Below are positions 14,504-64,000 of a DNA stretch of 64,000 bases, in pieces. This stretch comes from Taenia hydatigena. Taxonomy: Eukaryota > Platyhelminthes > Cestoda > Cyclophyllidea > Taeniidae. The notes under the pieces were generated by a model, which saw only the letters and a list, made by a program, of their open reading frames with translations, ran no database searches and was not told where the DNA came from. Every line of letters starts with the position of its first letter. Positions within the stretch are counted from its first letter, which is position 1. The stretch spans positions 15,867,556 through 15,931,555 of the forward strand of contig JADWOT020000009.1 in assembly GCA_036345935.2 (NCBI GenBank), read 5' to 3'. The translations under genes were made by a program, and so were the position numbers.

Positions 14504-16629
14504 GTAAGTGAAGAAGAAGGGAGGGTCAGTAGCTTCCAGGGCGTATTAAAACGCAACTACTTTTCCTAATTTGTTGAGCTTAGCCAACATCACAGACAAT
14601 ACCGCTCTATATTACCCTGTATCAAGTCGTCTCCTCGTCAAAACCAACTACGAGTCTAGCAGAAAAGATGTAATGTAACCAATAAGAAGAATAAAAAGCT
14701 GACTAAAATATCATCAGCTAAGTTTCTTCTTCGCAATTATTGTTTTCTTTTTTTGCTTGCAAAAGTTCTAGTGACTTTAGAATGTTCCTTGTAATAAGGA
14801 CGCAACTTACAACAGTTTACGCCTAACTGAATGCTCTGGACACCCTTCTTCCAATTCCATCGCAAGACTGTGCGATACACCCTTCTTTAAGCCACCCGGC
14901 ATCTGAGATTCTGGTTGCTTCCATTGTCACTTCTAGGAGGTCAATTGTTCTACTGCCATGTTTTACGGTTCATCCTCAGGGAAGATTAGGGACCTAATGC
15001 AGACGAGATTAGACAGGTGTCACTAAACTACTTATTAAAACCCCACTAACGTACTCTTGGTGATCAAAAATGTTCACTCTCTAAACGTGTCTATGGAAAG
15101 ATTAATTGAATTCCCCTCCACACAATATTAACCCAACTCGAGCCCTTTTGTGCTTAACTCTGAGACCATTACCATCGACTTCTTTGTCACGATCCAAATT
15201 GCTTCATTCCTCTTGCTTCTGAGAGCACTGCGTACTTTAACCCCAGCAAATGCCTCAATGGAAAGCAAGATAATTTCAATTATAGTTAAAAATCTACATA
15301 GAAGTTCAGGTCATAAGTGCAGAATAGAAGTTAGCACGAATCGAGCTAATGAACAAGAATGTGAAGTCCAATCTACCTTATCCACTTCTATTTGGGTTCA
15401 TATGGACGTACTTTCCATCTGGCCTTAATGACACAAATGATTTGGGTATGAACGTATTAACTCAAGAACCCTTAACAGCACTGAAAAGAACAAGTTAACT
15501 GCTGCCTCTTGAAGGCAAAGAAATTAAAGTACTCGTAGATGCTGCCACTACTAATGCCTTGAAAAAAAACAGTGGAAACTGTACGCACTTCCATAGCAAG
15601 GTGAAGAATACCATGAACAGCATGCTTAATGAAATAATGCCTCACTCACATTCTTTTTGAAGACAACAACGACAGTGGAGTCAATGACAGAAGAGACACA
15701 GCTATTACTGCTCGTCAAACTAAAAATTATGCCAATTTCCATGCCGTCCAGTGGAAATGGCATTTATGAGGCATTGCCGAACTCAAACCAGACCTTGTTA
15801 CACTAACTGCAGTGGTTTTGTAGATGCAATTCAACAGTCCCTCCTCTTCTGCCAGCGATATGAAATAAAACGAACATAGCATCAAACATAACATATACTT
15901 TCTTTGTTTACTTGCTCTCTTTGTTCCCAATCCAAAGCTTGCTATGATGTGCGGATGTGAATTTTTCGGTGTAAAAAATTCAACAAAAGAAGGGCAACTT
16001 TAAATAGGTCAACCAAGACTTAATGAACACACGTTTGACTAGTGAATATTTTAAATGATAATTACACAAATGGTGTCTACCTGAGTCCTTCCATCTCCCC
16101 ATATCTAGATCCCATCTTACCAGCCTTCCTAATAGTATCAGGCGGTGAGAACCAAACGTCTACAGAATTGCAGAGCGTACCATACTGAGGTGGAGATAAT
16201 GGTACAGTGGACATACCGACTACACCTTCCCTTTACGTAAAATACTAAACTACTCTTCGTCAATTATGAACCATGGAGCTAGATAAAATTTTAATGAGTC
16301 GACTCTCATCCACTCATTCCTTTCCTTACTAAAATACCGCAAATTACATACCCATTGATCACGAGAGCTGGGTGGTGGGGTAAGTAGGTAAGCGTTAGTC
16401 TAACTAGTGGAAAATTATAAAGCTGCCAACATAGTCGCCCAATTCATCCCAAGAGAGAGAATGCCTTCCCAATCTGCTCCATTCATCAACGAATAAATGT
16501 GCCAAACTCGTGTTTATCAAGAATAAATGGGGACTGGATCAATCCCGACACCATAAATATCTGTGAGAGAGAAGAAAGTGGTTTGAAAACGAAAGCTATG
16601 AGTCATGACATTGGATGAAGATGGATGAT
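14504..16629 (-). repeat. Decayed 3' flank and unit fragments of the antigen array (-)
   Basis: This is the left border of the array. 15,140-15,240 matches the minus-orientation unit fragment seen near 36,780. 15,640-15,940 matches, in opposite orientation, the 3' flank of gene B (28,780-28,960) and, in the same family, 41,930-42,120. The block ACACGTTTGACTAGTGAAT near 16,028 is the reverse of the 3' flank near 21,625. No gene recognised. Confidence 0.55.
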
Positions 16630-17397
16630 TGGAAGAATAGCACTGACCGATGCAGGTGAAGAGGACCCCAAAGATTGCTAGTCGTTACAACTTTTCCTGC
16701 CATTCAGTGTCATGCAAAGCATGTATTTCTCTCACCGTGAAGAGATTGGTAATGAAGGCCGAGAATAGGTGCCTATTGAAGGGCTCAAACAGTACTATTG
16801 GGCAATCGAGGCAGTCACTGCCCCTTCCAATACACGTCGAAAAACAATGCACTTGGATTGGCTTACCAGTGTCGTGTGTTTTAATGTATTTGCGGAATTT
16901 CAGACGCTGTCGTCCACCTTTCATTCCCGTCACTGTCATAGCATATAATGAGTTGGCCTCCAGTCCGTCAACAGTGGCCTCTTGTTTATCGGAGAACGCA
17001 GAAGCAGACTTTTCGGATTTGGGTTTGGAAGTCAACTGTGCCGTCAAAGTGATTATCAATTCGTTTGGTTTATCCAGTTTAGGTAGACCACTTAATTCTA
17101 GCAATTTTCCAACTTAAAGTGTTTTCGTAGTGGGTTCCCTATTGCAATTATCACTTTAGCAAAGTGGGAAAAGAGTTAACAAGCCATAATGACTACTCAT
17201 TGGTGCCCAATACATTCGCCTTCGACCTGAAAGTATAAAGGGGTCAAAATGAGTGAACGCACTAGAATGCAACTGCTTATGATTGGTTTTGGAGCTAAAG
17301 GTATCACTTAGCAAGTGCTTTTACACCCATGCTGATAAGATCAAAATGCAAATTAACAACTTAATGCCAAAAGAAAGAGGCCCAACTGGAACGCCAT
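16630..17397 (-). pseudogene. Oncosphere antigen (FnIII) pseudogene psi-1
   Basis: All three exons of the antigen plan can be traced on -. Exon 1 starts ATG at 17,397 (MAFQLGLFLLAL) but its end is deleted together with the donor, joining straight into intron sequence at about 17,361. Exon 2 is 17,153-16,867; it keeps PLRKHF, the EKSASAF stretch and VDGLEANSLYAMTVTG, but a deletion and in-frame stops disrupt the first strands. Exon 3 (from 16,696) keeps VVTTS and then loses about 30 bp before the hydrophobic tail, shifting the frame. The promoter box and TATA are still present upstream. Clearly a broken member of the family. Confidence 0.85.
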
Positions 17398-17436
17398 ATT
17401 CACACCACTAATGTTTTACCTTCGCAACACATGGAG

Positions 17437-17478
17437 TATTTATATGAAAGCCGCACCCGCATATCAGCCTATGGGCTC
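17437..17478 (-). promoter_or_regulatory. Conserved antigen-type promoter of psi-1
   Basis: On - the box GAGCCCATAGGC (17,478-17,467) lies 34 bp upstream of TATAAATA (17,444-17,437), which is 47 bp from the exon 1 ATG: the same spacing as in genes B and C. Confidence 0.6.
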
Positions 17479-17479
17479 A

Positions 17480-18150
17480 CTTCGTATTGATCTTCAAGGC
17501 GACTTCTACGTCTTGAGACGCGTTGGATTGCGCTAGTCCTCCCACATCCAACCTCCATGCTTGCTATCATTAGAGGTGAACGTGTGCCAAATTAAAGGGA
17601 ACATGCATTGTACACTTGCGTCACTCATTGTCGATTGGGATAGTTAAGCCAATGCTATTGTAAACATGGGGGACATTTGCAAAATCAACATCATATTAGA
17701 AGCAATCCTGCACTGCTCATGAACTTACCACTATCGAGTAAAGAATGCTGTTCCCTGACTCCGTTCTCCAAGGATTCCCTATTGGAAACAAGCAACAATG
17801 CAGTTTTAGTGGAAGGCAAAAAGGAATTCGCTACTTGAATGCTCAAGAGGGTACAGTTCTAACCTTGTAAATAAATGCATACGCTCTCGCTAATATCCGG
17901 CACAATTTTCATTAAATTTTGAAGTAAATTTGGTGGTAAGATTAGCAGTTTGAATGTCGTTTATAGAAGCACACTCATAAAAAAAGTCTTATAAAAATAA
18001 AGTAAATTATGTCTTGTAATAATATGATTCGAGACTGGAAAGTGAAGTTTGTGGAGTGGATTGGGGTAAGGCGATGCCTTACTAACCTATCTTGTACAAA
18101 AATTATAAGGACTCCACTAGAGACACAATTTCAGCCTATTCATCCCAAAT
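17480..18150. other. 5' flank of psi-1 and unassigned spacer
   Basis: The first 150 bp continue the conserved antigen 5' flank on - (GTGGGAGGACT, CGCCTTGAAG). The rest holds nothing I recognise. Confidence 0.4.
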
Positions 18151-18970
18151 GCAAGAACATCATCAAAGCCGATTCCATTCAATCAAAAACAAATGCGCCA
18201 AATGCGTGTATTTGCCAGTAAGGGGCTATTCATCATAAGAATTCAAATTATTGTCAAAAAAAATCAAGAGAGAAACGGTAGTGCGGCATTCTCGACACAT
18301 GGGTGTCGTCAAGGCAGAAAGAGGTGGTGGAATAAGACAAGTTGTGACCCGATTGCTTACATACTTCTGCTCAGTTAAGATAGACATGACCGAGGTCTGC
18401 TTCCTTTCATCCATCTATAATTTTCGCGACAAAGCCGGATTAAATGGAGTGGAAGAACGGTCTAGCCTTCAGCGTTGGCGCATTAGTATTATTGTTGAGG
18501 GTGCAGAAAAGAAGAGACAGAACAAAAACTTGATCATAAAGGAACGGTGCACGCGACTGTAGTGAAACTCACTTTATTATCAGCGCAACCATCGCTATGC
18601 TTGACTTCACTCCTGCATGAAGACGGTGATCTCATGCGCAAAATGAGAGGAGGTCAATGTGAACCACATACACCGTTTTTAATGTGATTAGACACAACCA
18701 CACATGCGCAAGCATACTTATCCAACGTATACTGGAAGGTTTTACTCAATTCACATTAAGGTACAGCACAAAAGGCAACCAAAGAGGGAAAGGCATTGTC
18801 AGTGTGGTTTCAGAGTTGAGCACGAAAGGGGGTCCAAAATGAGTGAATGTAGGGAGTGAGAGGAAAGCTACAAAACACCAGACAATGGCGACTTGATGGA
18901 GTGTGAGTGGCGTTGATGGCGCCACAGGTGATGGTCTCGTTTTGTGAATGCCAAGGTGGCTACACCGACT

Positions 18971-19582
18971 TCACCTCGTCTGGATCACCATGGCAGACGG
19001 ATTGCACAAAGCATGTGTAAAACACGGTCTGTGTGCAATGTGGTCCAGCAGACTCGTGTTGTCTAAAGAAGAGAAAAGGAAATGTGGTAGGTTTAACTGA
19101 CTTTCTACGTGTTGCATCCTGACAGTGGTGTTTAGGATGCTACGGCATTCCTGTTGGTAAAGTTGAACACCGCTTTCTCTTGTGTTAGCGATGCGAAAGA
19201 AGAGGTGACTACCACACCAGACAGGTGGGATATTTGTTCGTGTATCCAGTTCGCCCCTTCCTCTCACATCCACATTCGTGCAGTTCCGATGTGTTGATTT
19301 GAATAGTGTCCTGGCCTCCCTCATCATCATGAGATGGATCGGAGTCGCCCCAACTCTGAGGACATTCCAAAATAGATCGGCTAAATGCAAGCAGTGCGAC
19401 AGGATGTAGGCTGGCATTGTTGGTTGATTGAATCCAGTGTCTGCCTGAAGTGGCTTGCCTTCAACATCAACTGTGCTGTTTAGAGTGGGGGCGGTCCACT
19501 TCTGCAAGACATCATAGATGCATGTGTGGCAGCATTGAGAAGCGGCAAACAATGCCATTAGTTGCATTAGAGACAAACACAC
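18971..19582 (-). other. 203-codon open frame in the unit 5' flank
   Basis: A frame of 203 codons on -, starting MCLSLMQLMALFAASQCCH, which could pass for a signal peptide. I recognise no domain. Its copy in unit 2 (26,565-25,954) keeps the frame except for a Trp to stop change near 26,350. The same DNA belongs to a repeat family whose other copies have no such frame, so it is probably fortuitous; lineage-specific coding cannot be excluded. Confidence 0.25.
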
Positions 19583-20065
19583 GTACGGTTAGTCGCACAA
19601 CCAAATTCACATAAATACTGATGAGAATTAAACCAAACATTGGCGAGGGAGTATACGCTGGTCTACACAGTTGGAACTATATCCTCTTACACACTAAACA
19701 ACGATTTCTGTGGTGCCCTACACCAAAACGACATGTTTTGCTTGCGCTGAAATAGAAAGCCTCAGAGACGATGGTAACGAGACCATAACTGTAGTCGCAT
19801 CCTACAATCGGTGGTGGTGAGTTCCCGCAGACCACAAACATACTTCTGAGATGTTGTGGATTTTTAAATGCTCCCCATGTTCACAATAGATTTCGTCCAA
19901 TCAACTCGAAGGAGAATGCGTGATGTGAGTGTTTACTGCATGATTTTATCCAATAAAGTTGGTGTTAACTTCGATGATAAGAAGCGTGAGAGTTAGACGT
20001 GGGAGGGCTCATGTAATGTAACACGTCTCATGCCGTAGGAATCGCCTTGAAGTTTAAAGCGGGAA

Positions 20066-20103
20066 GAGCCCATAGGCTGGTGTGTGCAGCAGCAGTATAA
20101 ATA
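20066..20103 (+). promoter_or_regulatory. Promoter of gene A: GAGCCCATAGGC box and TATAAATA
   Basis: Box at 20,066-20,077, TATAAATA at 20,096-20,103 (30 bp apart), ATG 47 bp from the TATA start. The arrangement recurs at genes B and C and at several pseudogenes. Confidence 0.65.
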
Positions 20104-20142
20104 CGCCATGATTTGTGAGGGCAAATCATTGGTGGTGTGAAG

Positions 20143-21049
20143 ATGGCGTTTCACCTGTGTCTCATTCTGTTCGCGACTTTCGGTTTTGCTGATAAACAGA
20201 ACGAAAAAATCAGTAAGTATTCGATTAGCATTTGGATCTAATCAGGAGTAGTGTGGAAGCATTTGTTGGATGATAAGATTTGTTTCAGTGCAGATTATAA
20301 GCAGTTGCATTCCAGTGGTTTCACTCAATTTAAAGCCATCATTAATTCAGGTTATGGATAAATATGAGTAGTCATTTTGACCGGTTAACTCTTGTTCTAT
20401 TTAGTCAAAGGGACGAACATAACGGGGAACCAACTAAAAGAATACTTTGAGTGGGGTCCTGTGACTACACACTCCATTAGCCTAACTTGGAACAAGACGA
20501 AATTGCAAAGTGTGCCCCATGGAGATGTCACATTGGTAGCAGAGTTGCCTTCTGATCCGGATTCAGAAAAATATGCGCATGCGTCCCTCGAGGAGGGAAT
20601 AGTTATTCTTGATGGACTGAAGTCCAACACATGGTATTCTGCGACTGCGATCATAGTGTTTGATTCAGAACCAGTTTTGGAATTCAGTAAGGATATTAAA
20701 ACAGAGGCCACCGGTAAGCCAGTACATGTGATTATACTCTAAATGCCAAATAAAAAGACACCATTCGCCGACACTTATCAGGAGAGGCATCTGCTACCAT
20801 TATTACGTAGGAACATCGCTTAAATTTACTACTGGGCGCCCCTTACTTAGTGCTCATTTGCAAACATTTTACCGTTGAATGTTAAAATGACCGGAATGCC
20901 TTTTTTACGCAGGCCATGAGGCAGAAATCGCAACGCCAAGCGAAGGCACCGCAACGACTAGCGAAGTTGCTACAACATCTAGCGGATCTGGTAAAACACT
21001 TGCAGTCGCTGAACTCATCTTCACTTGCACGGCGATAGTCCTTGCTTGA
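20143..21049 (+). CDS. Oncosphere host-protective antigen family gene A (EG95/45W type)
   Basis: Exons 20,143-20,212 (70 nt), 20,405-20,713 (309 nt) and 20,913-21,049 (137 nt), all GT/AG with phase 1 at both introns, give 171 aa. Residues 1-16 (MAFHLCLILFATFGFA) are a signal peptide. About 26-127 is a single fibronectin type III domain (EYFEW, SISLTWN, ILDGLKSNTWYSATAI). A Ser/Thr-rich linker made of three related units follows, then a C-terminal hydrophobic segment (LAVAELIFTCTAIVLA) ending in TGA. Sequons: NIT in the linker to the domain and NKT in the domain. The family is expressed in oncospheres, is secreted or surface-bound, and includes vaccine antigens; its molecular role is unsettled. 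The frame is intact and the promoter well formed, so it is probably active. Genus-level orthology (EG95, 45W, TSOL45 type) cannot be settled by eye. Confidence 0.9.
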
Positions 21050-21640: not shown

Positions 21641-22914
21641 CCACCATCCTCTTCTTGTTCTACAAGATCGTCCGCCATGTGAGGCCACGTGATTTGTTAT
21701 GATCAACCCAATGTCTTGTGTTCCTTCCAGTGACGTCGTGACAAATGTCGTGACATGATGCTATGACACCCAGATAGCCTCCCTCCTCAGCTTTGCTCTC
21801 TCCAATGTGTCAGCTTCGGTTAAGTTTCCATCTCCGAGCTCAATGGTAATGACCACTACAACGGTAATATGACTTGAAGAGTTGGATGCTGTGGTCCAAG
21901 TCACTTGGCAGGACATTGTGCGAACAAGTAGCATTCAGAGCTCCGTCTGAAGAGGATCGCATGAGGCTCACCTGAAACCACAATGATGTGGTCATAAGAA
22001 GACAAATAAATGAATAAATTAAAACAAAACTTTCCAAAGTGGAGAATAAACATGTTTTAGTGGGATAGAGATCCAGTGCCATAAAAACCGCCATTTGCAT
22101 ATTTTAATCGTTGCAATGCATTGGAGGTTATATTTTAGTTGTAAATTTAGAATAGGGAGTGAGCTGCTGATGAGTGCCCTAAAAGTGCCTTAAAGGTTAG
22201 TAGCAAAAGGTGAAAGAAATTCTAGTTAGTAGGAGCAAAATTGAGCAAGCAACCAGGGCTTCATTGACACCCTTCACTAGTGATTTTGAAATAATGTTTG
22301 CATAAATGATGACTTGCATAGTCCTCACATCACTGCATATCATGATCTCATCTTACCAGCATTCCTAATAGCAATGGGGCAGCGGGTATCACACATCTAC
22401 AGCAGTGAAGAGCGTGTCATACCGAGATGGGGGTGAACGATGTGGAATAGGTGGACATACCGACTAAACCCTTCCTATTACATAAATAGCTAAATCAATC
22501 TTTAGTCAATAGTAAGTTACGGAGCATAAAAAGGGATAATAATGAGATGGCTTGCATTCACTCATCAATTCCTCCACTAAACTACCACAAATTACATGCC
22601 TGGCGAGCACGAGAGGAGGGTATTAAGGTCGGTAAGGAGGCGCTAGCCTACATTGTGTTTAGCATGAGGCTATCATTATATTTGCCCACTTTGCCTTCAA
22701 CAAATTCACTCAACTCACTGCGAAGGATAGAACGCCTTGCCAGACTGCTTCACCAAACCACAAACAAATGTGCCAGGCATGTGCATTCGTCACGCAGTGG
22801 TTACCCATCATGGAAGGTTAAATCAATGCTAAGAAGTCAAGAATGAATAGGGATTACCACATTCCCAACACTATAGATGCCTGCAATGGAGAAGGAGGTG
22901 GTTGAAAACGCAAT
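21641..22914 (+). repeat. Duplicated spacer, first copy (matches 33,213-34,250)
   Basis: 21,645-22,640 is collinear with 33,213-34,200 on the same strand, about 85-90% alike by eye (shared start CATCCTCTTCTTGTTCTAC). Its right part holds the reversed 3' flank of a minus-strand antigen unit leading into the pseudogene at 22,915. No coding gene recognised. Confidence 0.7.
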
Positions 22915-23850
22915 TTAAACATGGACTGCCACCATGCAGGTGAAGAGGAGTCCAACGCTTGCGGAGCTTCTACCAGATCCGCTGGTCGTTACGACTCGCC
23001 CTTTCTCATGGCCTGCGTAAACAGCGCATTTTACTTATTATGTCGCACAAAGAATGCACGCCTCTCAACGGTGAAGTGTTTGGAAACGGGTGCCGAGAAC
23101 AAGCACTGAGTGGTGAACTCGAACGATGCTCTTGTGTGAGGAAGGCAGTCCGTGCCTCCACTTCTAACTCTCAATGAATAACCTCTTTCGATGTGACATT
23201 CTACAGCATGGCAAAACACGTGCAGCACCTTACCTGCACTCAGTGTTTGAAAATATTTGCTGAAATTCAAAATTGTGTGTGCACCATGTTTTGCCATTGC
23301 AGTCGCAGTGTATGCTGTTTTGGGTGGGTCAGTTTATCGAGAGTGACCTCCTTCGCTAATGTACGCAGATGTTGACTTGTCAAACTCATGGTCAGAAGCC
23401 AAGACTGCCGTCATTGCACCTTGCGATGCACCTTTATTCCAACTTGGGCGAATGGAGTAAAAACCTACTGGACTCCACTGAAAGTGCCTGTGTAGTGCGT
23501 GAGGCCGTGGCGTTGTTCTTTAGCAAAACAAAGAAAGCGTAGGAATTACGCGATTGTGCCGATTGCGACTGTTTAGATCGTTGTAATTAGGAGAGGAAGA
23601 GAGTATACTACAACAGTTAATCATCATTGAAACGCTCCTACCAATCTGCTGCATGCGAATAAGGTAAAATAGAATGTGTGTGAAAGCGCTAGAAAAGAGC
23701 TGCGTGTAACCAGCCTTAGCAAAATTAATGATGCTTTCCCATAAATGCTGATTAGACATAAACGTAAAACTACAACTCACCGGCTGTTGCTTCGTACTCC
23801 TCAGCCAAAACGCATATAGCCAACAGAATGAGACGTAGTTGAGGCGTCAT
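22915..23850 (-). pseudogene. Antigen pseudogene psi-E with intact outer exons
   Basis: On -: exon 1 is 23,850-23,781, exactly 70 nt with a good signal peptide (MTPQLRLILLAICVLAEEYE) and GTGAGT donor. Exon 3 is 23,012-22,915, 98 nt, open, with VVTTSGSG and the tail VGLLFTCMVAVHV then TAA. Exon 2 (23,517-23,234, 284 nt against 303) is broken: one base is lost before LHRHFQW, and a 2-bp loss at the EVTLDGL position brings a stop (near 23,340). The TATA region is degraded (CTTATGATTAC). The damage is confined to the FnIII exon. Confidence 0.85.
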
Positions 23851-25150
23851 CTCCACACCAGTAATATTTTGCCTTCACAACGCATGACGTAATCATAAGA
23901 ATGCTGCGCACTGGCATCAGCCCAGGCGACTTCTGTCCTGTACAACGTGGGGAATAGGAACATATCTGTCACAGTGGAGTAGCCTCTCCCCATCGGTGTA
24001 TGTGGCTCACCTTGGCATCCTCCCCTCTTGTGCGCGAGAACCTGCGTTGATGAGAGAGAGCTTTGAAGCATAACGGTACTCATGCTGATGATAAAGAAGG
24101 TCCATTTGAAAGTGTGTGTACACTTCAGTTAAGATGGAAGCATCTCTCCCATTTGCTTTTTCCTTTAGCTTGCAAATGCGTCGATTATTTCCGTAGATTT
24201 TGATGGCATCAGTTCTATTGCTGGGTAAAGATAAGGGATATGCATGATTTGACCATCACACTTGGTGTGATCAACGCCGCTCACACGCCATCTCGTCTCT
24301 GTCACTAAGTGTCTCACAAATCCTCCACTGCCCACAGCATCCACCCAAATCAAACTCTTTTGCGCTCATCTTGGCGAGCATCACCATCCCCTTCTTTATC
24401 GCCACTTATACTGCCTCATTGTTGTTTAGTTTGACACGAGCGCAAATTCCCATTGTTGGCTGCCTCTTGTGCTGTCGACCGACCTAACTCCGACTAACCC
24501 TTTCATTAAACGTTGGAGAAGCACAAGTGAGTAGATGCGGATGCCTGCATTTTACACGTAAAACAGCGTGTGCTGATGATGTTGATCTCCTCTCTTCTTG
24601 TCACATTTCATTACCTAGTCATGAAAATACGCATACAAAATTAGTTAGCGAAATCCTTCTCAAAATTGTGAATAAACATGCTGCAGTGGAATAGAGATGT
24701 AGGAACATAGAATCTGTCATTTGCATACTTTATCCGCAGCATTGGATTGGATGGGAAGTATTATTATCGAATTATACACATGGACGAAACTCTCAATGGG
24801 TGCCTCAAAATCCAGTTGCAAATTCAACATTGAGCACTCAGCTAAACCTTCAATAACACACGTTTGACTAGTGATTGGAGGAGTGGTAATTGCATAGATG
24901 GTGACTGCCTGAGCCCCCCTGAAGTCGCCTAACTTGGTCTCATCTTTCCAGCTTTCCAAATGCCACTAGAGTAGTGTGGACCACACTTCTACAGGATTGG
25001 GAAGTGTGGAGATTAGATGCTTGTTGCTCACAAGAGCTGGGTAATGGGGCAAGTAAGCAGGTGTTATTCCAACTTGTGGAGAATTATGAAGCTGACAACA
25101 TATTCTCGCATCTTACTTTAAACATTTGCACCCAACTTCACCACAATAGA
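23851..25150 (-). repeat. 5' flank of psi-E and unit fragments
   Basis: 23,880-24,000 resembles the conserved antigen 5' flank. 24,240-24,330 is a minus-orientation copy of the dispersed 5'-flank core (CACTTGGTGTGATCAACGCC). 24,840-25,220 is the reversed 3' flank of another unit, without a gene. No exon seen. Confidence 0.5.
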
Positions 25151-25953
25151 GCGAATGCCTTCCCAGTCTGTTCCATTCAAGCACAAGTAAGTGTGTTGAA
25201 TTCATGCATTTGTCATTGAGGGATTAAATTAACATTGATGAAGCGAGAATGAATAGTGAATGGGACAAATCCGACACCACGGATGTCTGGGAGGCAGAGA
25301 GAGTTAGTGAAATGAGGCAATTTGTGGCTCGATCGCTTACATACTTCTGCTCAGCTAAGATAGACATGACCGAGGTCTGCTTCCTTCCATCCACTTGTGA
25401 GTTTCGCTGCAAAGACGGATTAGGTGAAGTGGAAGAACGGTCTAGTCTTCAGCGTTGGCGCATTATTATTATTTTTGAGAACATGGAAAAAGAAAAGAGA
25501 CAGAAACACAACTTTATCATGAAGGAACGATGCACGCGACAGTAATGAAACTCACTTTATTGTCAACATGAACATCGTTATGCTTGACGTTACTCCTGTA
25601 TGAAGACGGTGATCTCATGCGCAAAATGAGAGGAGGTCAATGTGAACCACATACACCGTTTTTACAGGTGTTTAGACACGACCACACATGCGCAAACATG
25701 CTTTTCTAACGTATACTGGAAGGTTTTACTCAATTCACATTAAGGTACAGCACAAAAGACAACCAAAGAGGGAAAGGCATTGTCAGTGTGCTTTGAAAGA
25801 TGAGCACGAAAGGGGACCAAGTTGAGTGAATGAAGGGAGTGAGAGAGGAGCTGCGAAACACCAGACGATGGCGACTGGATGGAGTGTGGGTGACGTCGAT
25901 GGCGCCACGGGTGATGGTTTTGTTTTGTGAATGCCAACGTGGCTGCACCGACT

Positions 25954-26565
25954 TCACCTCGTCTGGATCACCATGGCAGACGGATTGCACAAAGCATGTG
26001 TAAAACACGGTCTGTGTGCAATGTGGTCCAGCAGACTCGTGTTGTCTAAAGAAGAGAAAAGGAAATGTGGTAGGTTTAACTGACTTTCTACGTGTTGCAT
26101 CCTGACAGTGGTGTTTAGGATGCTACGGCATTTCTGTTGGTGCAGTTCAACACTACTTTCTCTTGTGTTAGCGATGCGAAAGAAGAGGTGACTACCACAC
26201 CAGACAGGTGGGATAGTTGTTCGTGTATCCAGTTCACTTCTTCCTCTCACATCCACATTCGTGCAGTTTCGATGTGATAATTTAAATAGTGTCCTGGCTT
26301 CCCTCATCAGCATGAAATGGATCGGAGTCGCCCCAACTCTGAGCACATTTTAAAGTGGATCGACTAAATGCAAGTAGTACGACAGGATATAGGCTGGCAT
26401 TATTGGTTGGCTGAATCCAATGTCTGCCTGAAGCGGTCTGACTTTAACATCAACTGTGCTATTCACAGTGGAGGCGGTCCACTTCCGCAAGACATCGTAG
26501 ATGCATGTGTGGCAGCATTGTGAAGCGGCAAACAATGCCATTAGTTGCATTAGAGACAAGCACAC
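25954..26565 (-). pseudogene. Interrupted copy of the 203-codon frame
   Basis: Same reading frame as 19,582-18,971, but with an in-frame stop (TTTTGG against TTTAAA context) about codon 72, leaving 71- and 131-codon parts. Probably non-coding repeat sequence in both places. Confidence 0.25.
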
Positions 26566-27048
26566 GTACAGTTAATCGCACATTCAACTTCACATAAATA
26601 TTGATGAGAACTAAGCCATCCATTGGCGAGGGAGTATACGCTGGTCTACACAGTTGGAAATATATTCTCTTACACACCAAACAACGATTTCTGTGGTGCC
26701 CTACACCAAAACGACATGTTTTGCTTGCTCTGAAATAGAAAGCCTTAGAGAAGATGGTAACGAGACCATAACTGTAGTCGCATCCCAAAATCGGTGGTGA
26801 TGAGTTCACGAAGAGCGCAAAAATACTTCTGAGATGTTGTGGATTTACAAATGCTTCCAATGTTTACAATAGATTTGGTCCAATCAACTCGAAGGAGAAT
26901 GTGTGACGTGAGTGTTCACTACATGATTTCATCCAATGAAGTTGGTGTTAACCTCGATGATAAGAAGCGTAAGAGTTAGACGCGGGAGGGCTCATGTAAT
27001 GCAACAGACCTAATGGCGTAGGAGTCACCTTGAAGGTCAGAGAGGGGA

Positions 27049-27090
27049 GAGCTTATAGGCTGATAAGTGTGTGCAGCATGCATATAAATA
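27049..27090 (+). promoter_or_regulatory. Promoter of gene B
   Basis: GAGCTTATAGGC (two changes from the family box) at 27,049-27,060, TATAAATA at 27,083-27,090 (34 bp apart), ATG 47 bp from the TATA start. Confidence 0.65.
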
Positions 27091-27129
27091 CGTCATGAGT
27101 TGTGAGGGCAAATTATTGGTGGTGTGAAG

Positions 27130-54300: not shown

Positions 54301-54529
54301 TGCAAAGTAGTTCACTACAATTGGACTAATTCACTGAACTCTAAATTGGTAGCTTTGGCAGTGATCGGGAAATAAATACCCTCTGATATATGTTGTCAGC
54401 ATCACGTGCTGGATCACAATTCCTCTTGTTGTGTTAGGACAAAGAATTTGCCTGTGTGGACGCATTTAAGGCTCTGTTGGGCGATACGATTTGGGTGAAT
54501 GGGATGGTTGGGCACACGTCTCGATTTGC

Positions 54530-55260
54530 TGAATGAATCGCCTGTGAGCGTGGCATTTGATATTCGCAGTGGAGCATGTCATTTGATTGGAATATGCGCC
54601 ATTTTCTATCGTTGTATCGACTAACCGATTTGGATAGAACAGTGGCTAGACTAATGACAGCGGTGGATGGACAAGTAGCCACCTAAGTATGGGCACCCGG
54701 AAACCCATTACTTTGGCACCGAAAATAGGTGAGGAGGGATAGGGGTACGGCATTTGCCTTTTGACGAAATCATCGAAGAGGAGGATTTTATCCTTGCAAA
54801 TAAAAGCAACACGAAAGTGAAAATCCAGAGCTCTGCTGCTCACTGAACCTGCTTAAGTTAAAAAGGCGGACAATAAGTGGAGTGGATAGCTGAGCAACAG
54901 AGGAAATAGATGCACAGAAAAATTCCATAAATCATGAAGCTATGACGACCGCCACCTCACTTTGATGCGAGTTTACTATATTAGTAGAGTGCATTGCAGT
55001 AGCATGTGACAGGACAGCGGCCGCTATCGCTCCAATAATAAGGTGATAATCATCGACGTGGAGTAGCAATAGTGCCTATCCGTGGTAAGGAATCACAAGC
55101 ATTTATATCTTCGTACCCAAAGCATCTCCTTCGGGAATCTATACGAAGATTCCTACTCGAGTGAATTCGTCGATACATCAGGGGTATTTGAAGGGCCACA
55201 GCATGCTGACGAACGTAAGCGTGAATTTAGAGTGACACATTAGCAAGGCAAGAAGGACAG
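54530..55260 (+). repeat. Direct duplication, second copy
   Basis: Copy of 50,660-51,330, about 80-85% alike by eye with small indels. Confidence 0.7.
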
Positions 55261-55577
55261 CCAATGGGTTTGGCCTCAGCAGTTACACGCTAGCATCTGT
55301 CCGCAAAGCAAAAAGTGGTAAAGGCACCTTATTTATCTTGCCGTAGATGCTATGTAACCTTTTGGAAATCATAAGGCTACTAGCACATTCATCTGCCTCA
55401 TTTCGAGCATTTTACCACTTTTCACCGAAAAGGACAGAACGCCTTCCCTCTCCGTTCCATTCAGCCGTGTAGAAATATGCCACATTCGTCTATTTCTCAT
55501 TAAAAATTTGTTCCCACTGGAGTGTTAACTTAATGTCAACGAGGCAAGAACGAATAGAGAGTGGATTATTTCCGACA

Positions 55578-56510
55578 CTATATATGCTGGGTAAGTAGGA
55601 AGAGGTGAAGGGAAACACAAGTCATGCTTTGTGTAATTAGATAGAGAAGAGTGATCGGAAAATTGGCATTGATGGGCGCCAGCGTTTGTGCAAGAGCTAC
55701 TGTCATGCAAGTGAAGAGGACACCAGCTATCGCAGAGATCATACCAGATCCGCTAGTCGTTTCAGCACCTCCTTCCTCATTACCTATGCAACGCAGATAT
55801 TTTGCTTTTTACATCGTGCAAAGCATGCGCATCTCTCAATGCGGAAGCATTTAGTAATGGTGGTCAGTGTATGCCAAAATAAAGCTCATTTGCAAGATGG
55901 GCATAATCACGTAGACTAGCTTACCAATGCCCTGTGTCTGAATTTCCTTGGTTAATGTCAAAATTCGTCTTCCATTGTGCATTGTCAGCACATTTATAGT
56001 GTATGATGTGTTGGGCATGAGATCCTAGAGAGTGACTTCTCCTTCGCTGAGGCTCGCAAATGCTGACTTTGGGAATGTAGAGGGAGAAGCCGACACTGCC
56101 GTCACTGCGATTTCTGCATCAAGCACATCCTTTAATTCCTTTACGTCCCAGCTTAAGCGAACATAATTGGAACCCACAGAACCCCAATGGAAGTGTTTTG
56201 CCAGTGGTTGTTCTCCTGGCACTGTCCCTTCAGCAAAATAGGAAAAGTCCTAATCAGCCAGCATGACTACCTTGTGGTGTGGATTGCATTTTCCACGACC
56301 TGACAGCATGACAGGTTTAAAGTGAGTTGATGCAGATAAATGGAAATGCTTTATACAAGGTTTGACGACAAAAATGTCTTGATGTGTTAGACACATGTAT
56401 GCTTATGCTGATGAGATTGAAATGTAAAAATACAACTTACCGACGGATTTTCCATGCTTCATGGCCAAAATGAAAGACACTAACGGAAAAAGACACAAGT
56501 AGAGCATCAT
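55578..56510 (-). pseudogene. Antigen pseudogene psi-G in the left inverted-repeat arm
   Basis: On -: exon 1 56,510-56,441 (70 nt, MMLYLCLFPLVSFILAMKHG), exon 2 56,227-55,925 (303 nt), exon 3 55,783-55,578. Splice sites and promoter (box 56,570-56,559, TATAAAT 56,536-56,530) look sound. In exon 2 the codons after GEVTL read TAG GAT where gene C has GAC GGA, so translation stops halfway through the FnIII domain. In exon 3 the family stop after the hydrophobic tail has become CAA, so the frame would run on to TAG at 55,578. It is identical in coding sequence to the copy at 63,104. Confidence 0.88.
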
Positions 56511-56679
56511 GATCTCGCCACAGCTGCGCATTTATAAGAATGCCTCATTCGCAAATCAGCCTATGGGCTCTCCTCGCTTTGACCCACAAGGCGACTCCTA
56601 CTCAATGCATCGTGATGGAATACGTGAGTTCGCCCACACCCAACTCCCACGCCTGTTATCATAGAGGTGAACGGCGACT
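55614..56679 (-). repeat. Left arm of a near-identical inverted repeat
   Basis: Position x pairs with 119,614 minus x. Over 1,066 bp no indel was found and only two mismatches by eye (56,306 and 56,342, both in intron 1, G here where the other arm has the equivalent of A). Identity breaks abruptly at 56,679. Confidence 0.95.
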
Positions 56680-57827
56680 AACTTTGAGAAAATGTGCACT
56701 GTACACTCTCATCACGCGCTGTTCTTCGGCTTAGTAAGGCACAAGTTGTTTTGGGTGGGGTTGCCAGTCATGAATCCACAGCAATTACAAAGTGTGCTTG
56801 CATGTTTGGAAACTTACCACCACCAAATGAAGGATGCAACCGCATTTCTGGGTTCGCTTGCCCATTCTGTGAGACTACTTACGCGCTCAATGATGCAAGT
56901 TGTGGAAGATAACGAGACATTGTATAGAGACGAAGCTTCCACCTCTCTGATGCTCTATTCTTCTCTTCTCCTTGCACATGGCTAGCAGAAGAGGAAGCAG
57001 TGTTGAAGTGCACCAAAGCAAAAGTCTTGGCGTCAAAGACACCACCGAGAGGGCGCTACATGCAGGAATGCTGCATAAACTTTTACGCCACATCTTCTCC
57101 TTTACTGGCAACACAAGTCTTGCGCACTACAGTAAACTCAGCCCACACTTTATGCACCCTTCGCGCAATCCGACCGTCATGGTAATGCTAGCGATGTTAA
57201 GCACGTTTTGGCACGTCAGCACTCATTGTTTCGCCTCTGAAACCTCTCTTGTTATCAGCGCTGCTCACGGCCAATCTCGTCTCCCTGCAATGTGTATTTG
57301 AGACCCTTCCACTACCCACAAATGCACCTACCTCAAACCCATTTGTGCTCAACTTTGAGGGCACCACCATCGACGTGTTTTCATGCCTAATATCACCCAA
57401 TTATTACTTGGTTTGCCACTAGCAATGCAAGGAAAGCAGTCAAAATTCGACACATGTACTGTTTTACGAGTAAAATATGCACCTTTGTTATATCAAAAGG
57501 AGCTTTTCAAACATTACTCAGGGCAATGCCGGACCAAAGAATAATGTGGTAATATAAGGCCTGACAAAGAATTCAGTGGTGGTGCTCTTAAAGTAGAGCG
57601 CAGAATGGTTCGAGGTTAGTGAATGTTGTAAAGTGTGGAGAAATATGAAAGCATTTAGTGATAGAGAGGACACGGACTGTGGGTGGTGTTGATCACAACA
57701 AATGCCAACGTGGCAACACGTGCTTGACCCTGTGTAGACTGCAATGGTAGATGGATTCTATAAGGCTTGTGCAAAATATGGTCTAAGTGCATGGGAAACC
57801 GCCACAATTGTGTTGAAATGGAAGAGA
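56680..57827 (-). repeat. 5'-flank element copies between psi-G and psi-H
   Basis: 57,100-57,300 is a minus copy of the 5'-flank element, belonging to psi-G; 57,640-57,790 is a plus copy, belonging to psi-H. No exon recognised. Confidence 0.5.
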
Positions 57828-58271
57828 ATTAGCAGGCATGGAGAAGTCACACATGGCGGGCTGATACCCAACTCATTATGGGCTCTGACTGCGTTCGAAG
57901 TGCAGAATTCAAACCCATTTTTGGTATTTGCAGCTAATATTCAAAAATTGGGGACCTGTAAATTATAAAAGGTGACTAGACCCTATACACCACATCAAAA
58001 TACATTATTTACTAACCAATCGTCAGAAGAAAAGTCGACTACCTCTATGCACGAAAGCATTGCTTGGGTCCATCACTGGACGCCTACCCATGGCGTTCAT
58101 TCCCAAATGTTCTACGATCGACGGATGTGCATGTTTTGCATGACATAATAATCGGAATGTTTTGTTTGTTAAGACTATGAAAAAGGGATAATCTAAACGA
58201 CCAGCGGATCTGGTATATCTTCAGCGACCGTCGGACCCCGCTTCACTTGCATGGCAGTAGCCCTTGCTTGA
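57828..58271 (+). pseudogene. Antigen pseudogene psi-H, 5' truncated
   Basis: Only the second half of the FnIII exon survives (57,828 to about 57,954; GEVTHGGLIPNS, then FAANIQKLGT), fused directly to a 5'-flank element, so exon 1, promoter and the first strands are deleted. The tail exon near 58,190-58,271 ends well (TSGSGISSATVGPRFTCMAV, then ALA and TGA) but has a stop just before it. The FnIII donor is also lost. Confidence 0.8.
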
Positions 58272-61200
58272 ACGCTCGCGTGCGTCAATGCCAAGTTCAT
58301 AGTCACCCATCCCCATCCAATATCACGAGCCATGACTTGCATCTTTCACCAAACCTTTTACTTTTGCAGGCATTCATAGTGTCTCAAACGCCACATTGTC
58401 TATTCATTATTGCTTATTTGACATTAATTCAACATCTCATAGCAGATACATCCTGAACGGCATACACACTTAGCACATCTATTCGTGTTTGAATGGAACA
58501 GAGTGGGGAGAGGTTCTCTCCTTCGGGGTTAAATAGGAGGAGGTGTTCAATTTGAAGCCATGGATGTGCTCGCAGCCACATATATTCCACGAGTCATTCT
58601 AGCACCTACTCTAATACTTATGTTCCTTAAATGAGCTTGGTAGGCCAGAGGCGGGAGGACAATTTGAACCTCGTCGTAGAGCAGTGTAGTCGCTCTGCAG
58701 AGTGCGACACATCCCCGATTTGAACTCTCCTACAATATCACTCTGCACCTTCACCCTGACCTTCAATAAAGACGTCAAGAGGTGCTCAGCCTTCTAATAG
58801 TAAGGGCGGAAGGAGGGAAGAGGAGGAATCGCTATACCAACAGTAAGATAGGTAAGGTAACTTCGTCACTTTTACTGCTTTGCAAGCAGACGAATGCCAG
58901 AATGTAACCGCTGAGGCCAAACTCATTGGCTACAGTGTCTGCTTCTCCTATTCACCTACAAATTTTAAAGAGGAAGCTTTGTCCTCTCTTTTAACAGCAC
59001 CGATGAAATCATTGCACAGCCGACAACACCACTGTCAACACGCAGCACGTGACACTTCAGCATCACCTGCCGCACTCTTCTCTCTTCTTTTAACAACTCA
59101 GTTCTATGGAACACATTCCAATGGGGCATTATATTTTGCATGCATTTTATAATCCATCTACTTGTTTTCTCGCCTTGATCACTACATTATTTGCTTGGAC
59201 TGGTGATGTTCATGCAAGAACTAAGTCAAATTAAGGCACATGCACTGTTTTACGAGTAGAATGTACGTTTTCTTTATGACAAAATGAGCTTTTAAACGCT
59301 TAAGGGAAGGATACGTTGCAGTTAGATTGGCCTACATTACTCAGGGCGGCCGAAAATGTGGAACCGGTGTCAGTGTTAGACCAAGTAATAATCGGTGATG
59401 TAAGCCTTTTAAACAAGTCAGTGGTGGTGCTTTTAAAGTTGAGTAGAAAGGGGTTTGAGGTGATTGAATGTCGCAGTGCATGAAGAAACATGAGAACATT
59501 TGACGACAGAGTGGAGATGGATTGTGGGCGTTGTTGATCACAATTCAGTGATAGTCTCGTTTCGATGATTGTCAACGTGGCAACACATGCTTGACCCCCA
59601 GCATCCTACTCAACGCGTCGCCTCCCTAAGCGTGGTTAGCTCGTCATCAATTGGCCCTCGCCTTGTAGGCCACCTGTTACAATGCTCGAAAACTCTCGTA
59701 TGCGAAGAGGTGTATGGTTTTCACTTGATTAGATTGCAGTGAAATGCGTATGGCAGGCATGATTTAAGATCGGTTAAACTTCACCTCCTACCAGGTTAAA
59801 AGATGGTGCAAAGTGAACGCTAGTAGACAAGTTTAACGAATTCCTAAACAACCTCTACCTTGGAGTTGACAGAAGAAGTTTGACTGGGCTGAATCCTACA
59901 AACCTTCTTGCTACATTGAAGCAGGAGATAGGTGGTGTAGCAGCACCATACTTCTTTCGGTGCTCCCTTCCACGCCCTGTCTACTCTAAACTCACCAGAC
60001 TCGATTCACATGTAGTGAGAGGAGAGCTGCTTTGGAACGGTTTGTCAAGTTGACAGTTGTGTCAAAGATTGCTCGAAGCTATTCACAGGAAATATGACTC
60101 AAGCACTTTGATTGCAGTAAAGGTCAGACTAGAGCAAAGTGCGACCCGAGTGGTGAGGAGATGTGAAGATTGTTTAAGGATCAGAGCCTTACGGCTGTAC
60201 GCATTTACTCTCATGGACTCAAACTGTGTTTTACCCATCATTTAGCGCAAATAAGCAGCTCCAGGCCTATTTGCTGCACTTCCTTTTCGCCGACAGAAGT
60301 GGAATGGCCGTCAAGTATTTATAGTTGGTCGGACTTCAATATGAATGCCCGGTTTGGGCGAGAGGATAGCAATTGCATGTGTTACACGATCTGCTTTATT
60401 TGGCAATGAATGTCTGGCCCATTTTAAGCGTTGGATGTCTAACCGAACATTCAACTTACTAGAGTAAGCAAAGTTAGCCTTTGCCTAGGACGAAAAGGCG
60501 GTGAACTGAAAATGGCCGAGAATATGGCCTGTCTAACTTACAGCCTTTGCTTATAAGTGCAAAAAATTCAAACAAAGTATGTTCTGGCTTTCATTCAATG
60601 CCCTTGTTAGTAGTACTGAGTAACATAACCTGTAAAAGTATGTAAAATCAAAGAGCATAGGTATCACACCACGAAGCTCTTCAAAATACCTTAGCGTTTT
60701 GTTCTCACTCTAGCAGGAGATTATCTTTGTCAGGTGAAAGACATTCATGCTTTACCAACTGCCATGCAGTAGCAATTGTCTGGCCTGCGAGATGGACTAT
60801 TTTTATCAGAACTACCTCCTAGACAGCGACCGATGCAAATTGCCATGGAAAATCATTGAATAGCCTTACTTTAAGGCATTTAGCAAGCTATGAGGTCAAA
60901 CTCGTGCACGTTGAAAGGAAGGAGGATGGGCCAATTTTGGAGTCCGTTATAATGAAATGTATGCGATACCTTTTGTGCTGTAAGGACGTCGATTTGGAGG
61001 TGATTCCCATCCTTCCCAATATCCCACGCCAGGATGTTTCGCGTCGAATCCTCTGTGTCACTTGGTTCACATATCAATATCGCCATCACGTACTCGTCCG
61101 TTCATTCCCTCTTCATCCCTTCATTCACCCACAGATGTTCCGTTCATTGAACTGAGACGTGTGCTTGACTATCCCGCTCACCGAAATTGCGTCATGCAAC

Positions 61201-62934
61201 AGAATTTTAGACAGCATTTCTGCAAGCAAATTCTCTGCCCTAACACAGCAGCAGAATGCTCGACCCAGCACGTGATGCTGGTGATATCTTACAGAGGGCA
61301 ATTATCTCCCCTGGTCACTGCAAAAGGGATTAAGCGAGAGCCCAGTGACCTTGCCCAATTATAGCAAAATACTTAGCTAAGTGGAGAAAAGCTGGGAGAC
61401 TGCTAGCGTAGCCAGAGTTGTGAGGCGTGAAGACCTTTAGACAAGGAATGCATCGAGCGCAAAAATGAGTTAACTAGGTACACGCTCCCAGCTGTCGCGA
61501 AAAGTAGTTTGGCAAAGTTACCAGACCCTGGCAAAGTCACTTTTATGGTGATGGAGAGCACTTGCTGGGTCACATATGCAAATGATAAATGAGCGTGGAG
61601 AAGTGGCATGCAGAAATCATTTTTCTGACCAAACGCAGCAAAAATGCAATTTATTTTAGAATGACGCTGCAGTGTGCTGCTGGTTTTTGAGGGAGTATTT
61701 AAGAGACCGAACAATTCGGCTACCGCTGGTTGCATCCCGTGCCACTCTAGTGGCCTCCCAAGCATTCCGCTTGTACTAGGCAGAATGCTCTGCCACATCA
61801 CTTCAGTCTATTAGCTCTCGAGAAAAGACGTAGATGGCAATGAATCTGTTTGTTTTGCACCTGTGATGGCGCAAAGCGCGTAATGAGGTAGGTGAGAGCA
61901 AGATTCGGCCATCCTCCTCGCCACTACTAAACAGCACAAGACATGCCTTCCTTTTAGTGCGTCATTTAGTCTCGAGTACACCGTTACCCAGCATCACCAC
62001 TTAAGTGCCCAATTTCACTCTTCACGTTCGCTACTCCATCCATGGGGAAAAAACCAGAAGTGGGGCACAGATATGTGTAATTCGCTTCTCTTTCAGTGAG
62101 GCATCATCAGGCTCAGTAAATCATAGGTTTAATGCTTTGAAGATGAATTTGCACTTTTCTGTACAGAATGAAGCCATATTTTACATTGACATGGGACTCT
62201 GTCCTCCTGTTGAGGACTTTGCAATTGCTGAGTGATATAAGTTGGCCAGTTTGCTGCACCCGACTCTGTGGAATCTCTACTGCCCTCTTTGATAAACACC
62301 AAATCATCATCTCCTCCCACCTCATTAAAGGGTAGGGAAGGAAGTCAGATTGCTTGAGCAGAGAAATAGAAAGAAAAGTCCCTATAAAAACAGATAAAAC
62401 TTGCACAAGAGTGCTCTTAGCCAAGTTGCCAGATTCACATTTGTGTTTCAGAATTCATTCCATTTTAGTCAGTGTCAGTTAGTTAATTAGACTACCCAAA
62501 CATTAGCTTTCAGCTCCAACAAAACTAGAACCATAGTAAGTAATCAAAATTTGTTAATAAGAAATTCAAGTGTAGTTTAATCCATGCGCATGAAACAACT
62601 TGGGCACTCGGCTGTTGCATAAATGATTTATAAGATAACCAGCGCACACTCAACTTGTTCTCTTAAATCCACGCGCCAAGCTGGCTGCATTCGTTGTGAG
62701 TTTTCTTGGTTATTATTGGGCACAGGATTCATGTTTTGTAGTAAAGTATGACCAATCTCAAATTTAAGCCAGATGTGGTGCATATTTTTGTGAATAAAAT
62801 CTGTGGCCACTGTTGGAATTTTGTAGCCTTGGAGCTCTGAGGCAGATTTAATTTCGTACTGCAGAAGTACTTGAATCACTTATTATGTTCTTCAGCACAT
62901 CTCAATCCTCCAAATAATTGGCTTTGTAAAGTAA
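58272..62934. repeat. psi-H 3' flank and dispersed-family copies
   Basis: 58,280-58,560 is the antigen 3' flank. 58,860-59,160 is a minus 5'-flank element and 59,520-59,600 a plus one. 59,600-59,750 and 60,880-62,020 belong to the family also at 45,270-46,690 and 53,380-54,400. 62,010-62,230 is related to 35,790-35,990 and 48,160-47,930. 62,400-62,930 holds nothing recognised. No supported gene. Confidence 0.5.
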
Positions 62935-63043
62935 AGTCGCCGTTCACCTCTATGATAACAGGCGTGGGAGTTGGGTGTGGGCGAACTCACGTATTCCATC
63001 ACGATGCATTGAGTAGGAGTCGCCTTGTGGGTCAAAGCGAGGA

Positions 63044-63084
63044 GAGCCCATAGGCTGATTTGCGAATGAGGCATTCTTATAAAT
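63044..63084 (+). promoter_or_regulatory. Antigen-type promoter in the right arm
   Basis: GAGCCCATAGGC at 63,044-63,055 and TATAAAT at 63,078-63,084, 34 bp apart. The TATA-to-ATG distance is 26 bp instead of 47. Confidence 0.6.
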
Positions 63085-63103
63085 GCGCAGCTGTGGTGAG
63101 ATC

Positions 63104-64000
63104 ATGATGCTCTACTTGTGTCTTTTTCCGTTAGTGTCTTTCATTTTGGCCATGAAGCATGGAAAATCCGTCGGTAAGTTGTATTTTTACATTTCAATCT
63201 CATCAGCATAAGCATACATGTGTCTAACACATCAAGACATTTTTGTCGTCAAACCTTGTATAAAGCATTTCTATTTATCTGCATCAACTCACTTTAAACC
63301 TGTCATGTTGTCAGGTCGTGGAAAATGCAATCCACACCACAAGGTAGTCATGCTGGCTGATTAGGACTTTTCCTATTTTGCTGAAGGGACAGTGCCAGGA
63401 GAACAACCACTGGCAAAACACTTCCATTGGGGTTCTGTGGGTTCCAATTATGTGCGCTTAAGCTGGGACGTAAAGGAATTAAAGGATGTGCTTGATGCAG
63501 AAATCGCAGTGACGGCAGTGTCGGCTTCTCCCTCTACATTCCCAAAGTCAGCATTTGCGAGCCTCAGCGAAGGAGAAGTCACTCTCTAGGATCTCATGCC
63601 CAACACATCATACACTATAAATGTGCTGACAATGCACAATGGAAGACGAATTTTGACATTAACCAAGGAAATTCAGACACAGGGCATTGGTAAGCTAGTC
63701 TACGTGATTATGCCCATCTTGCAAATGAGCTTTATTTTGGCATACACTGACCACCATTACTAAATGCTTCCGCATTGAGAGATGCGCATGCTTTGCACGA
63801 TGTAAAAAGCAAAATATCTGCGTTGCATAGGTAATGAGGAAGGAGGTGCTGAAACGACTAGCGGATCTGGTATGATCTCTGCGATAGCTGGTGTCCTCTT
63901 CACTTGCATGACAGTAGCTCTTGCACAAACGCTGGCGCCCATCAATGCCAATTTTCCGATCACTCTTCTCTATCTAATTACACAAAGCATGACTTGTGTT
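63104..64000 (+). pseudogene. Antigen pseudogene psi-G', right-arm copy
   Basis: Exon 1 63,104-63,173 (70 nt), exon 2 63,387-63,689 (303 nt), exon 3 from 63,831 to beyond the window edge. The premature TAG is at 63,587-63,589. The tail exon (GNEEGGAETTSGSGMISAIA and VLFTCMTVALA) lacks the family TGA and reads on through AQTLAPINANFPIT. Coding sequence is the same as in the left arm, including both defects, so the damage predates the inversion-duplication or was spread by gene conversion. Confidence 0.88.

Follow-up and report, generated by a model that had tools for sequence, protein, structure and literature searches.

The 64,000-nt stretch of Taenia hydatigena DNA analysed here (the window; contig C9, positions 15867556-15931555, in an assembly of 306,030,797 bases and 1,354 contigs) carries ten loci of an apparent oncosphere-antigen family built around a fibronectin type III (FnIII) domain. 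They lie between about 15.2 and 64 kb of the window; three (A, B and C) are open and seven are broken. We consider it rather probable that an ampliconic region of EG95/45W type, at least 1.16 Mb long, has its left boundary in the window, and that in this region copying of blocks and palindromes goes together with decay of single copies. The gene structures, the fold, the map of copies, the palindromes and the lesions that copies share, all of them observed, are what this reading draws on. A preliminary description, made from the sequence alone, had presented the ten loci as a birth-and-death array from 15000 to 64000. The ten loci are there, but this is only the left end of the longer stretch, and 64000 is the limit of the window, not the end of the array.

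The three open genes have the structures listed here.

40271..41127, plus strand: gene A, open; exons 40271-40340, 40551-40853 and 41030-41127 (70/303/98 nt); 156 aa
20143..21049, plus strand: gene B, open; exons 20143-20212, 20411-20713 and 20913-21049 (70/303/137 nt); 169 aa
27130..27967, plus strand: gene C, open; exons 27130-27199, 27398-27700 and 27873-27967 (70/303/95 nt); 155 aa

All junctions in A, B and C are GT-AG with phases 1-1 and the reading frames are open, in agreement with the plan proposed beforehand (a 70-nt signal exon, a phase 1-1 FnIII exon of 303 nt and a short tail exon). The exon-2 acceptor adopted is common to the three genes; a more upstream one was rejected, its AG being present in B and in neither A nor C. 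By eye, each tail has a hydrophobic end following SGSG, which looks like a glycosylphosphatidylinositol (GPI)-anchor signal. The tail exons of B and C differ by a single in-frame gap of 42 nt. B-type tail exons, also judged by eye, contain 21-nt units in varying number that code for a Thr/Ser-rich stalk, with fewest units in C and most in N105; stalk-bearing examples are at 20913-21049 of the window and at 105574-105800 and 177174-177316 (window-based, i.e. counted on from the first base of the window, as are all positions beyond 64000).

Assignment to the family was approached through the fold and through printed antigen sequences. Among five stretches compared with Pfam fn3, only that of A passes (30.2 bits, cut-off 25; E = 5e-7). 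A structure model of the A FnIII exon, computed from a four-row alignment that includes B and C, has seven strands with a mean predicted local distance difference test (pLDDT) score of 85.5. It gave 1,772 PDB matches at E ≤ 10, of which 111 were at E ≤ 0.001, and most of the 50 titles listed are FnIII domains, fibronectin or engineered FnIII scaffolds, with a few unspecific ones; exon 2 of A is accordingly modelled as adopting the FnIII fold. The comparison with EG95 used 46 residues, assembled by joining overlapping printed stretches from PMC2670974 and PMC11876539, not the full protein. These residues align in register with A (score 65) and C (score 60; 0 of 2000 shuffles as good in each case) and with B (score 50; 1 of 2000). 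A match to the TSOL45-1 3' primer (PMC3383989) lies directly downstream of gene A, at 41139-41156, with 3 mismatches (0.04 matches expected), and the 5' counterpart of this primer has no match at up to 3 mismatches. A search of a large public protein set with spliced A yielded 70 candidates, none at E ≤ 10. Membership of A, B and C in the taeniid oncosphere-antigen family (EG95/45W/16K/18K), already recognised in the preliminary description, is supported because the predicted FnIII fold and the kinship to printed EG95 residues point the same way. The two FnIII domains characteristic of TSOL45/45W are not found here, since A, B and C have one each.

The inventory of the window started from tblastn searches with the open exons of A, B and C and with a piece of the broken locus G17 that contains no stop, and proceeded with DNA profiles (nhmmer). 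It comprises nine FnIII exons or fragments (E = 1e-94 to 4e-15; next-best match 0.28), eight signal-exon regions (4e-56 to 8e-30; next-best 3.1) and eight tail exons (6e-45 to 6e-11; next-best 0.096). The FnIII profile was trained on seven of the nine matches, the signal profile on five of eight and the tail profile on two of eight. Training rows match their own profile by construction; the independent matches are I58 and J63 for FnIII, G17, H50 and J63 for the signal exon, and six tails. Six loci are on the plus strand (B20, C27, A40, H50, I58 and J63) and four on the minus strand (G17, E23, F44 and D56). Copies therefore sit in both orientations, and their identity is mostly 63-76% where they match (near-colinear matches only). 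The broken loci are as follows.

16845..17498, minus strand: G17; promoter and part of the signal exon 17364-17498, FnIII 16845-17168 with a deletion
22914..23947, minus strand: E23; signal exon 23781-23850 open, FnIII 23211-23531, tail 22914-22996
44299..44840, minus strand: F44; FnIII 44559-44840 with several stops, tail 44299-44375
49961..50146, plus strand: H50; promoter and signal exon alone, carrying an indel
55688..56590, minus strand: D56; signal exon 56441-56510 open, FnIII 55901-56243 with one nonsense codon, tail 55688-55772
57838..58272, plus strand: I58; FnIII exon region, last 144 nt, and tail 58193-58272
63024..63926, plus strand: J63; inverted copy of D56 with the identical nonsense codon

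Exon structures and lesions thus confirm the division into three open and seven broken loci. The signal exon of G17 is interrupted and only traces of its tail are left; the FnIII exon of E23 has a deletion, small indels and a stop. F44 has lost its 3' end and carries several stops (two TGA, one TAG and two TAA), and the DNA-profile search of the window found no signal exon for it. The 5' part of the FnIII exon is missing from I58. In D56 and J63 the nonsense codon is number 67 of the FnIII frame, and the tail has no stop at the usual place; the two loci are 99.6% identical over 1,066 nt and one base apart in the FnIII frame. The seven loci had been described as differently broken. Lesions were found in all, but since J63 mirrors D56 the two are not independent, and the seven loci represent at most six decay histories. 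It follows from the common nonsense codon that the dead allele either predated the inverted copy or was copied from arm to arm.

Damaged copies recur outside the window. H50 has a mirror copy at window-based 69528-69713, and I58 has a counterpart, cut at nearly the same point, at window-based 129287 in a palindrome (P3) homologous to the one holding D56 and J63 (P1). The homologue of D56/J63 is open in one P3 arm and open only in part in the other. The palindrome scan took matches of at least 700 nt at 85% identity or more. These structures and the direct duplication within the window are listed below.

18293..20766, plus strand: direct duplication carrying gene B; 87.9% identical to the copy at 25272-27753 over 2,484 columns
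25272..27753, plus strand: direct duplication carrying gene C; copy of 18293-20766
45281..56685, no strand assigned: left arm of P1; 11.4 kb, 98.8-99.1% inverted identity to 62928-74393
56686..62927, no strand assigned: spacer of P1; 6.2 kb, parts homologous to the P3 spacer
62928..64000, no strand assigned: start of the right arm of P1, which runs on to window-based 74393
window-based 98487-101812 and 106544-109868, inverted: P2; 99.2%
window-based 119584-128988 and 133804-143156, inverted: P3; 88-91%

The B-C pair, its members 7 kb apart, is present at three places, two more lying 17.5 kb apart around 16.23 and 16.25 Mb of C9. In these extra pairs the C FnIII exon is identical and the B FnIII exon has 86% protein identity. 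A near copy of A is found at C9 16289175, with an F44 copy 4.0 kb further on, in the same order as in the window. The segment 21644-22708, which starts one base past the end of the B/C block at 20981-21643, is an 86% copy shared with 33219-34261; between these blocks the two sides therefore differ by about 4.6 kb.

P1, P2 and P3 all lie in gap-free sequence (the sole run of N in 214 kb is at window-based 185380-185479), and their spacers measure 4.7-6.2 kb. P3, 70 kb from P1, is homologous to it at 85-88% (89-91% over the part common to the four arms), and the two spacers share parts, among them the truncated FnIII fragment I58. Within the common part the P1 arms are 99.5% and the P3 arms 92.7% identical, compared with 89-91% between palindromes. 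The four arms align over 3,949 ungapped columns, in which 224 two-against-two sites pair within a palindrome and 0 across. Differences between the P1 arms are uneven (0 to 18 per kb), and the divergence of the P3 arms is about 7-12%, varying with the stretch under comparison. Arm-to-arm gene conversion probably keeps the arms alike, or else the arms were formed anew. A fourth candidate, P4, was sampled at 16.72-16.74 Mb of C9 with two fetched pieces; the outer mirror stretch matched (98.75% inverted) and the inner one did not. As a separate observation, 10 of the 12 equal-score copy pairs within 100 kb on one contig are inverted (by eye; C9, C7, C2 and C1249), and the two direct pairs both belong to one duplication; the bias hints that palindromes are common in the antigen family.

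No family match was found in the 30 kb left of the window, while the 150 kb on its right hold 15 further FnIII exons or fragments, giving 24 in 214 kb altogether. In nine of the 24 the domain is open in full or almost in full, and 15 are broken or partial. Three genes of this right-hand part appear undamaged by eye: O127, Q177 and K85 (window-based 83.3-85.5 kb), which has two FnIII exons and requires, for the second of them, an acceptor lying 12 nt further downstream. The usual stop is missing from N105, and M165 has an open first FnIII exon but a signal exon without start codon and donor. Two genome-wide searches, with the FnIII exons of A and B, scored the best 150 of 663 and of 624 candidates, and all 150 scored in each matched; the counts are lower bounds, and the searches recover 6 of the window's nine FnIII exons. 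Their union contains at least 195 distinct FnIII exons, of which 50 have a stop within the matched part and 145 have none; they are distributed over C9 (69), C2 (61), C7 (19) and 18 other contigs. At least 66 are within 15.87-17.05 Mb of C9. Among the 195 or more there are 32 neighbouring pairs 1.1-1.5 kb apart on one strand, a spacing like that of K85. A search with the tail exon (best 150 of 152 candidates scored) gave 71 matches at E ≤ 0.01, of which 44 fall between 15.89 and 17.05 Mb of C9 and 9 on C7, with C2 giving none; for 51 of the 71 a same-strand FnIII match is found within 1 kb upstream.

The evidence suggests the following course of events. Intact copies would encode small secreted proteins in which a signal peptide is followed by a single FnIII domain and a short tail ending in hydrophobic residues, and at least one neighbouring gene would encode two FnIII domains. 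By analogy with EG95, the products may be released by the oncosphere, or displayed on it, during invasion of the host. Direct and inverted segmental duplication would copy blocks holding live and dead genes together; palindrome arms would be kept alike by arm-to-arm gene conversion, or be newly formed; and single copies would then decay through stops, indels and truncation.

Several observations weigh against an ampliconic region of this kind. P1 and P3 do not agree in their inner boundaries, and the P3 spacer is for the most part unmatched in P1, so that two separate inverted duplications would also fit the two palindromes. Purifying selection had been anticipated at A, B and C. However, the ratio of non-synonymous to synonymous substitution rates (dN/dS) among them is 0.76-0.99 pairwise, and D56 compared with an open relative gives dN 0.143 and dS 0.148 (ratio 0.97); with ratios near 1 in open and broken copies alike, dN/dS alone cannot separate the two. 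In a neutral simulation of random substitution, 5-12% of runs ended with no stop in the FnIII exon (P = 0.05-0.12), which is weak evidence; together with the ratios near 1 this leaves constraint unproven for B and C. Pfam fn3 is below its cut-off for C (E = 0.18) and for the G17 piece (E = 0.07) and gives no match for B or the E23 piece. In the available part of the T. hydatigena genome paper, local segmental duplications are put at 0.63% of the genome and its growth is credited at least in part to retroelements (PMC8384839). The assembly, in 1,354 contigs, may also contain uncollapsed haplotypes, for example on small contigs, swelling the counts.

Signs of selection are clearer when genes are compared with relatives elsewhere (pairs with dS below 0.45). 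For A, dN/dS is 0.37 against the nearest copy and 0.45-0.79 against seven A-like exons; among these seven, 18 of the 21 pairs are below 0.9, two exceed 1 (1.26 and 1.31) and one has no synonymous change. A-type copies thus appear to be under constraint, and purifying selection is seen for A only, in comparison with its close relatives; B and C give about 0.5 to 1.2 against their own. Identity between B and C is 81% in exon 2, 81% in intron 2, 85% in intron 1 and 90% in the upstream part. Their exons 1 and 2 have no gaps and exon 3 has the one in-frame gap, compared with four gap events upstream, four in intron 2, five downstream and none in intron 1. That gene-wide positive selection made B and C diverge is unsupported (dN/dS 0.76).

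Change between A and the A-like exons is concentrated in codons 26-66, where the ratio of non-synonymous to synonymous differences (pN/pS) is 0.82, compared with 0.20 and 0.54 in the flanking parts (14 non-independent pairs), and maps on the model to the BC, C'E and FG loops. This loop face of FnIII is the one used by engineered FnIII binders. Variability of these loops was compared with that of the opposite loops in 22 of 30 aligned exons; the test was designed after the variable stretch had been seen, ignores relatedness, and omits K85b, L068 and L069 (no group) as well as L052, L053, L054, L057 and L063 (identical or nearly so to a kept row). BC, C'E and FG are more variable in the A-type (8 exons, P = 0.0002) and the N105-type (5 exons, P = 0.0016; site permutation); no excess was found in the B-type (6 exons, P = 0.145) or the K85-type (3 exons, P = 0.83). 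Loop selection across all groups was rejected, the excess being present in two of four. That the array is an antigen-diversifying amplicon, in which conversion spreads new and dead alleles from one palindrome arm to the other while selection focuses on the BC, C'E and FG loops, is for now a tentative and somewhat doubtful idea.

It seems unlikely that this is an ordinary local birth-and-death array of independent tandem duplicates, each living or dying alone. The two orientations and the mostly low identities would suit old, separate copies, and six loci do differ in their lesions; the decay of single copies, an element of the preliminary description, accordingly stands. However, blocks that include dead genes have been copied in direct and inverted form: D56 and J63 have one lesion in common, H50 and I58 have alike or nearly alike damaged counterparts beyond the window, the B-C pair occurs at three places, and the 11-kb arms are mirrored and closer to each other than to the homologous palindrome. 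Still less credit can be given to a graveyard of mostly neutral, decaying copies in which A, B and C are open by chance, which we regard as quite improbable. Ratios near 1 among A, B and C and for D56, and the 15 of 24 FnIII matches that are broken or partial in 214 kb, would be expected of it, but the coding gap between B and C is a single in-frame one beside 13 non-coding events, 18 of the 21 A-type pairs have dN/dS below 0.9, and 145 of the 195 FnIII exons in the lower-bound set are stop-free inside the match.

A different concern is the assembly itself, in which haplotype copies or fold-back reads could make palindromes and inflate copy number. The number of contigs, the near copies borne by the small contigs C475, C476 and C1249, and the P1 arms, whose identity of about 99% is within the possible haplotype range, are compatible with such an artefact. 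We nevertheless think it has little chance of being the explanation, as a single gap-free stretch holds P1, P2 and P3, the spacers of several kilobases are unlike hairpins, and the P3 arms, of the same layout, seem too far apart for haplotypes.

Some FnIII-bearing loci fall outside this account. On C2, 61 of the 195 FnIII exons (lower-bound set), including 18 two-exon pairs, lie between 1.0 and 12.5 Mb. As FnIII exons are found there and tail matches are not, the tail of the C2 relatives must be different or undetected, and they probably form a two-FnIII subfamily of their own. Another group of FnIII exons is dispersed and recurs on several contigs; in L015, L016 and L042 (C7, C8) three such exons follow in a row, about 600 bp apart. 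Thirty loci were fetched for it (L001-L008, L015-L028 and L041-L048), and it was rejected as part of the family, ten translated loci being FnIII exons of another type. The 14 loci L015-L028 gave no FnIII or tail match to the antigen DNA profiles. Weak signal-exon matches (L016 6e-9, L020 6e-5, L022 8e-4 and L024 1e-3) and weak FnIII matches in a six-frame search (L028 0.004, L019 0.04 and L022 0.4) are compatible with a distant kinship to the antigens. The left flank of the array (7649-11361, minus strand) is unique and usable for synteny anchors; it contains a gene for APC11 (RING-H2; Pfam zf-ANAPC11, E = 2.5e-31) and, in several exons, one for an apoptosis-inducing-factor-like oxidoreductase.

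Comparison with known systems is based on the available parts of the papers cited. The eg95 gene has a signal-peptide exon 1, an exon 2 with most of the FnIII domain and a third exon, with a GPI anchor and one pseudogene in the family (PMC2671473). In its three coding exons, a pseudogene, repeat-rich surroundings and a fast-changing exon 2, the E. granulosus family resembles the array (PMC2671473, PMC8894454). That species has four Eg95 genes on two chromosomes, eg95-5 and -6 being close together (PMC8894454), and five relatives are mentioned for E. multilocularis (PMC4836691), in contrast to the 66 or more FnIII exons, many of them broken and with palindromes, in 1.2 Mb of C9. Tm16 and Tm18 (Taenia 16K/18K) likewise have three coding exons, a signal peptide and a single FnIII domain, but measure 133 and 131 aa (PMC2706984). 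TSOL45/45W are FnIII-bearing oncosphere proteins too (PMC3383989); the array includes the two-FnIII gene K85, and A, B and C have one FnIII exon each. Larval expression of such genes is reported in T. crassiceps (PMC9128525). The T. hydatigena genome paper (308.5 Mb, 43% GC) names TSOL16B and Tsol15 among highly duplicated families, and its available part has no family map, copy count, pseudogene tally or palindromes (PMC8384839). Expansion of the family in this species has thus been reported, and the layout of the array was not found described: among the titles and abstract starts listed from the open-licence literature, a scope that mostly leaves aside subscription papers on 45W and eg95, none describes such palindromes, pseudogene clusters or copy arrangement. 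The tapeworm family is hermaphroditic. Genes on large inverted repeats, with arms kept alike by gene conversion, are similarly known from mammalian Y and willow palindromes, which are on sex chromosomes, whereas the array holds antigen genes in a worm (PMC6790999, PMC7023750).

Veterinary vaccines against taeniid larvae are drawn from the antigen family. Should one chromosome of a species indeed carry scores of relatives, open and broken, copied in blocks and palindromes, single-gene polymerase chain reaction (PCR) surveys could overlook a large share of the repertoire and mistake pseudogenes for genes. The array also makes it testable how host-protective antigens diversify, be it by arm-to-arm conversion or by selection on exposed FnIII loops.

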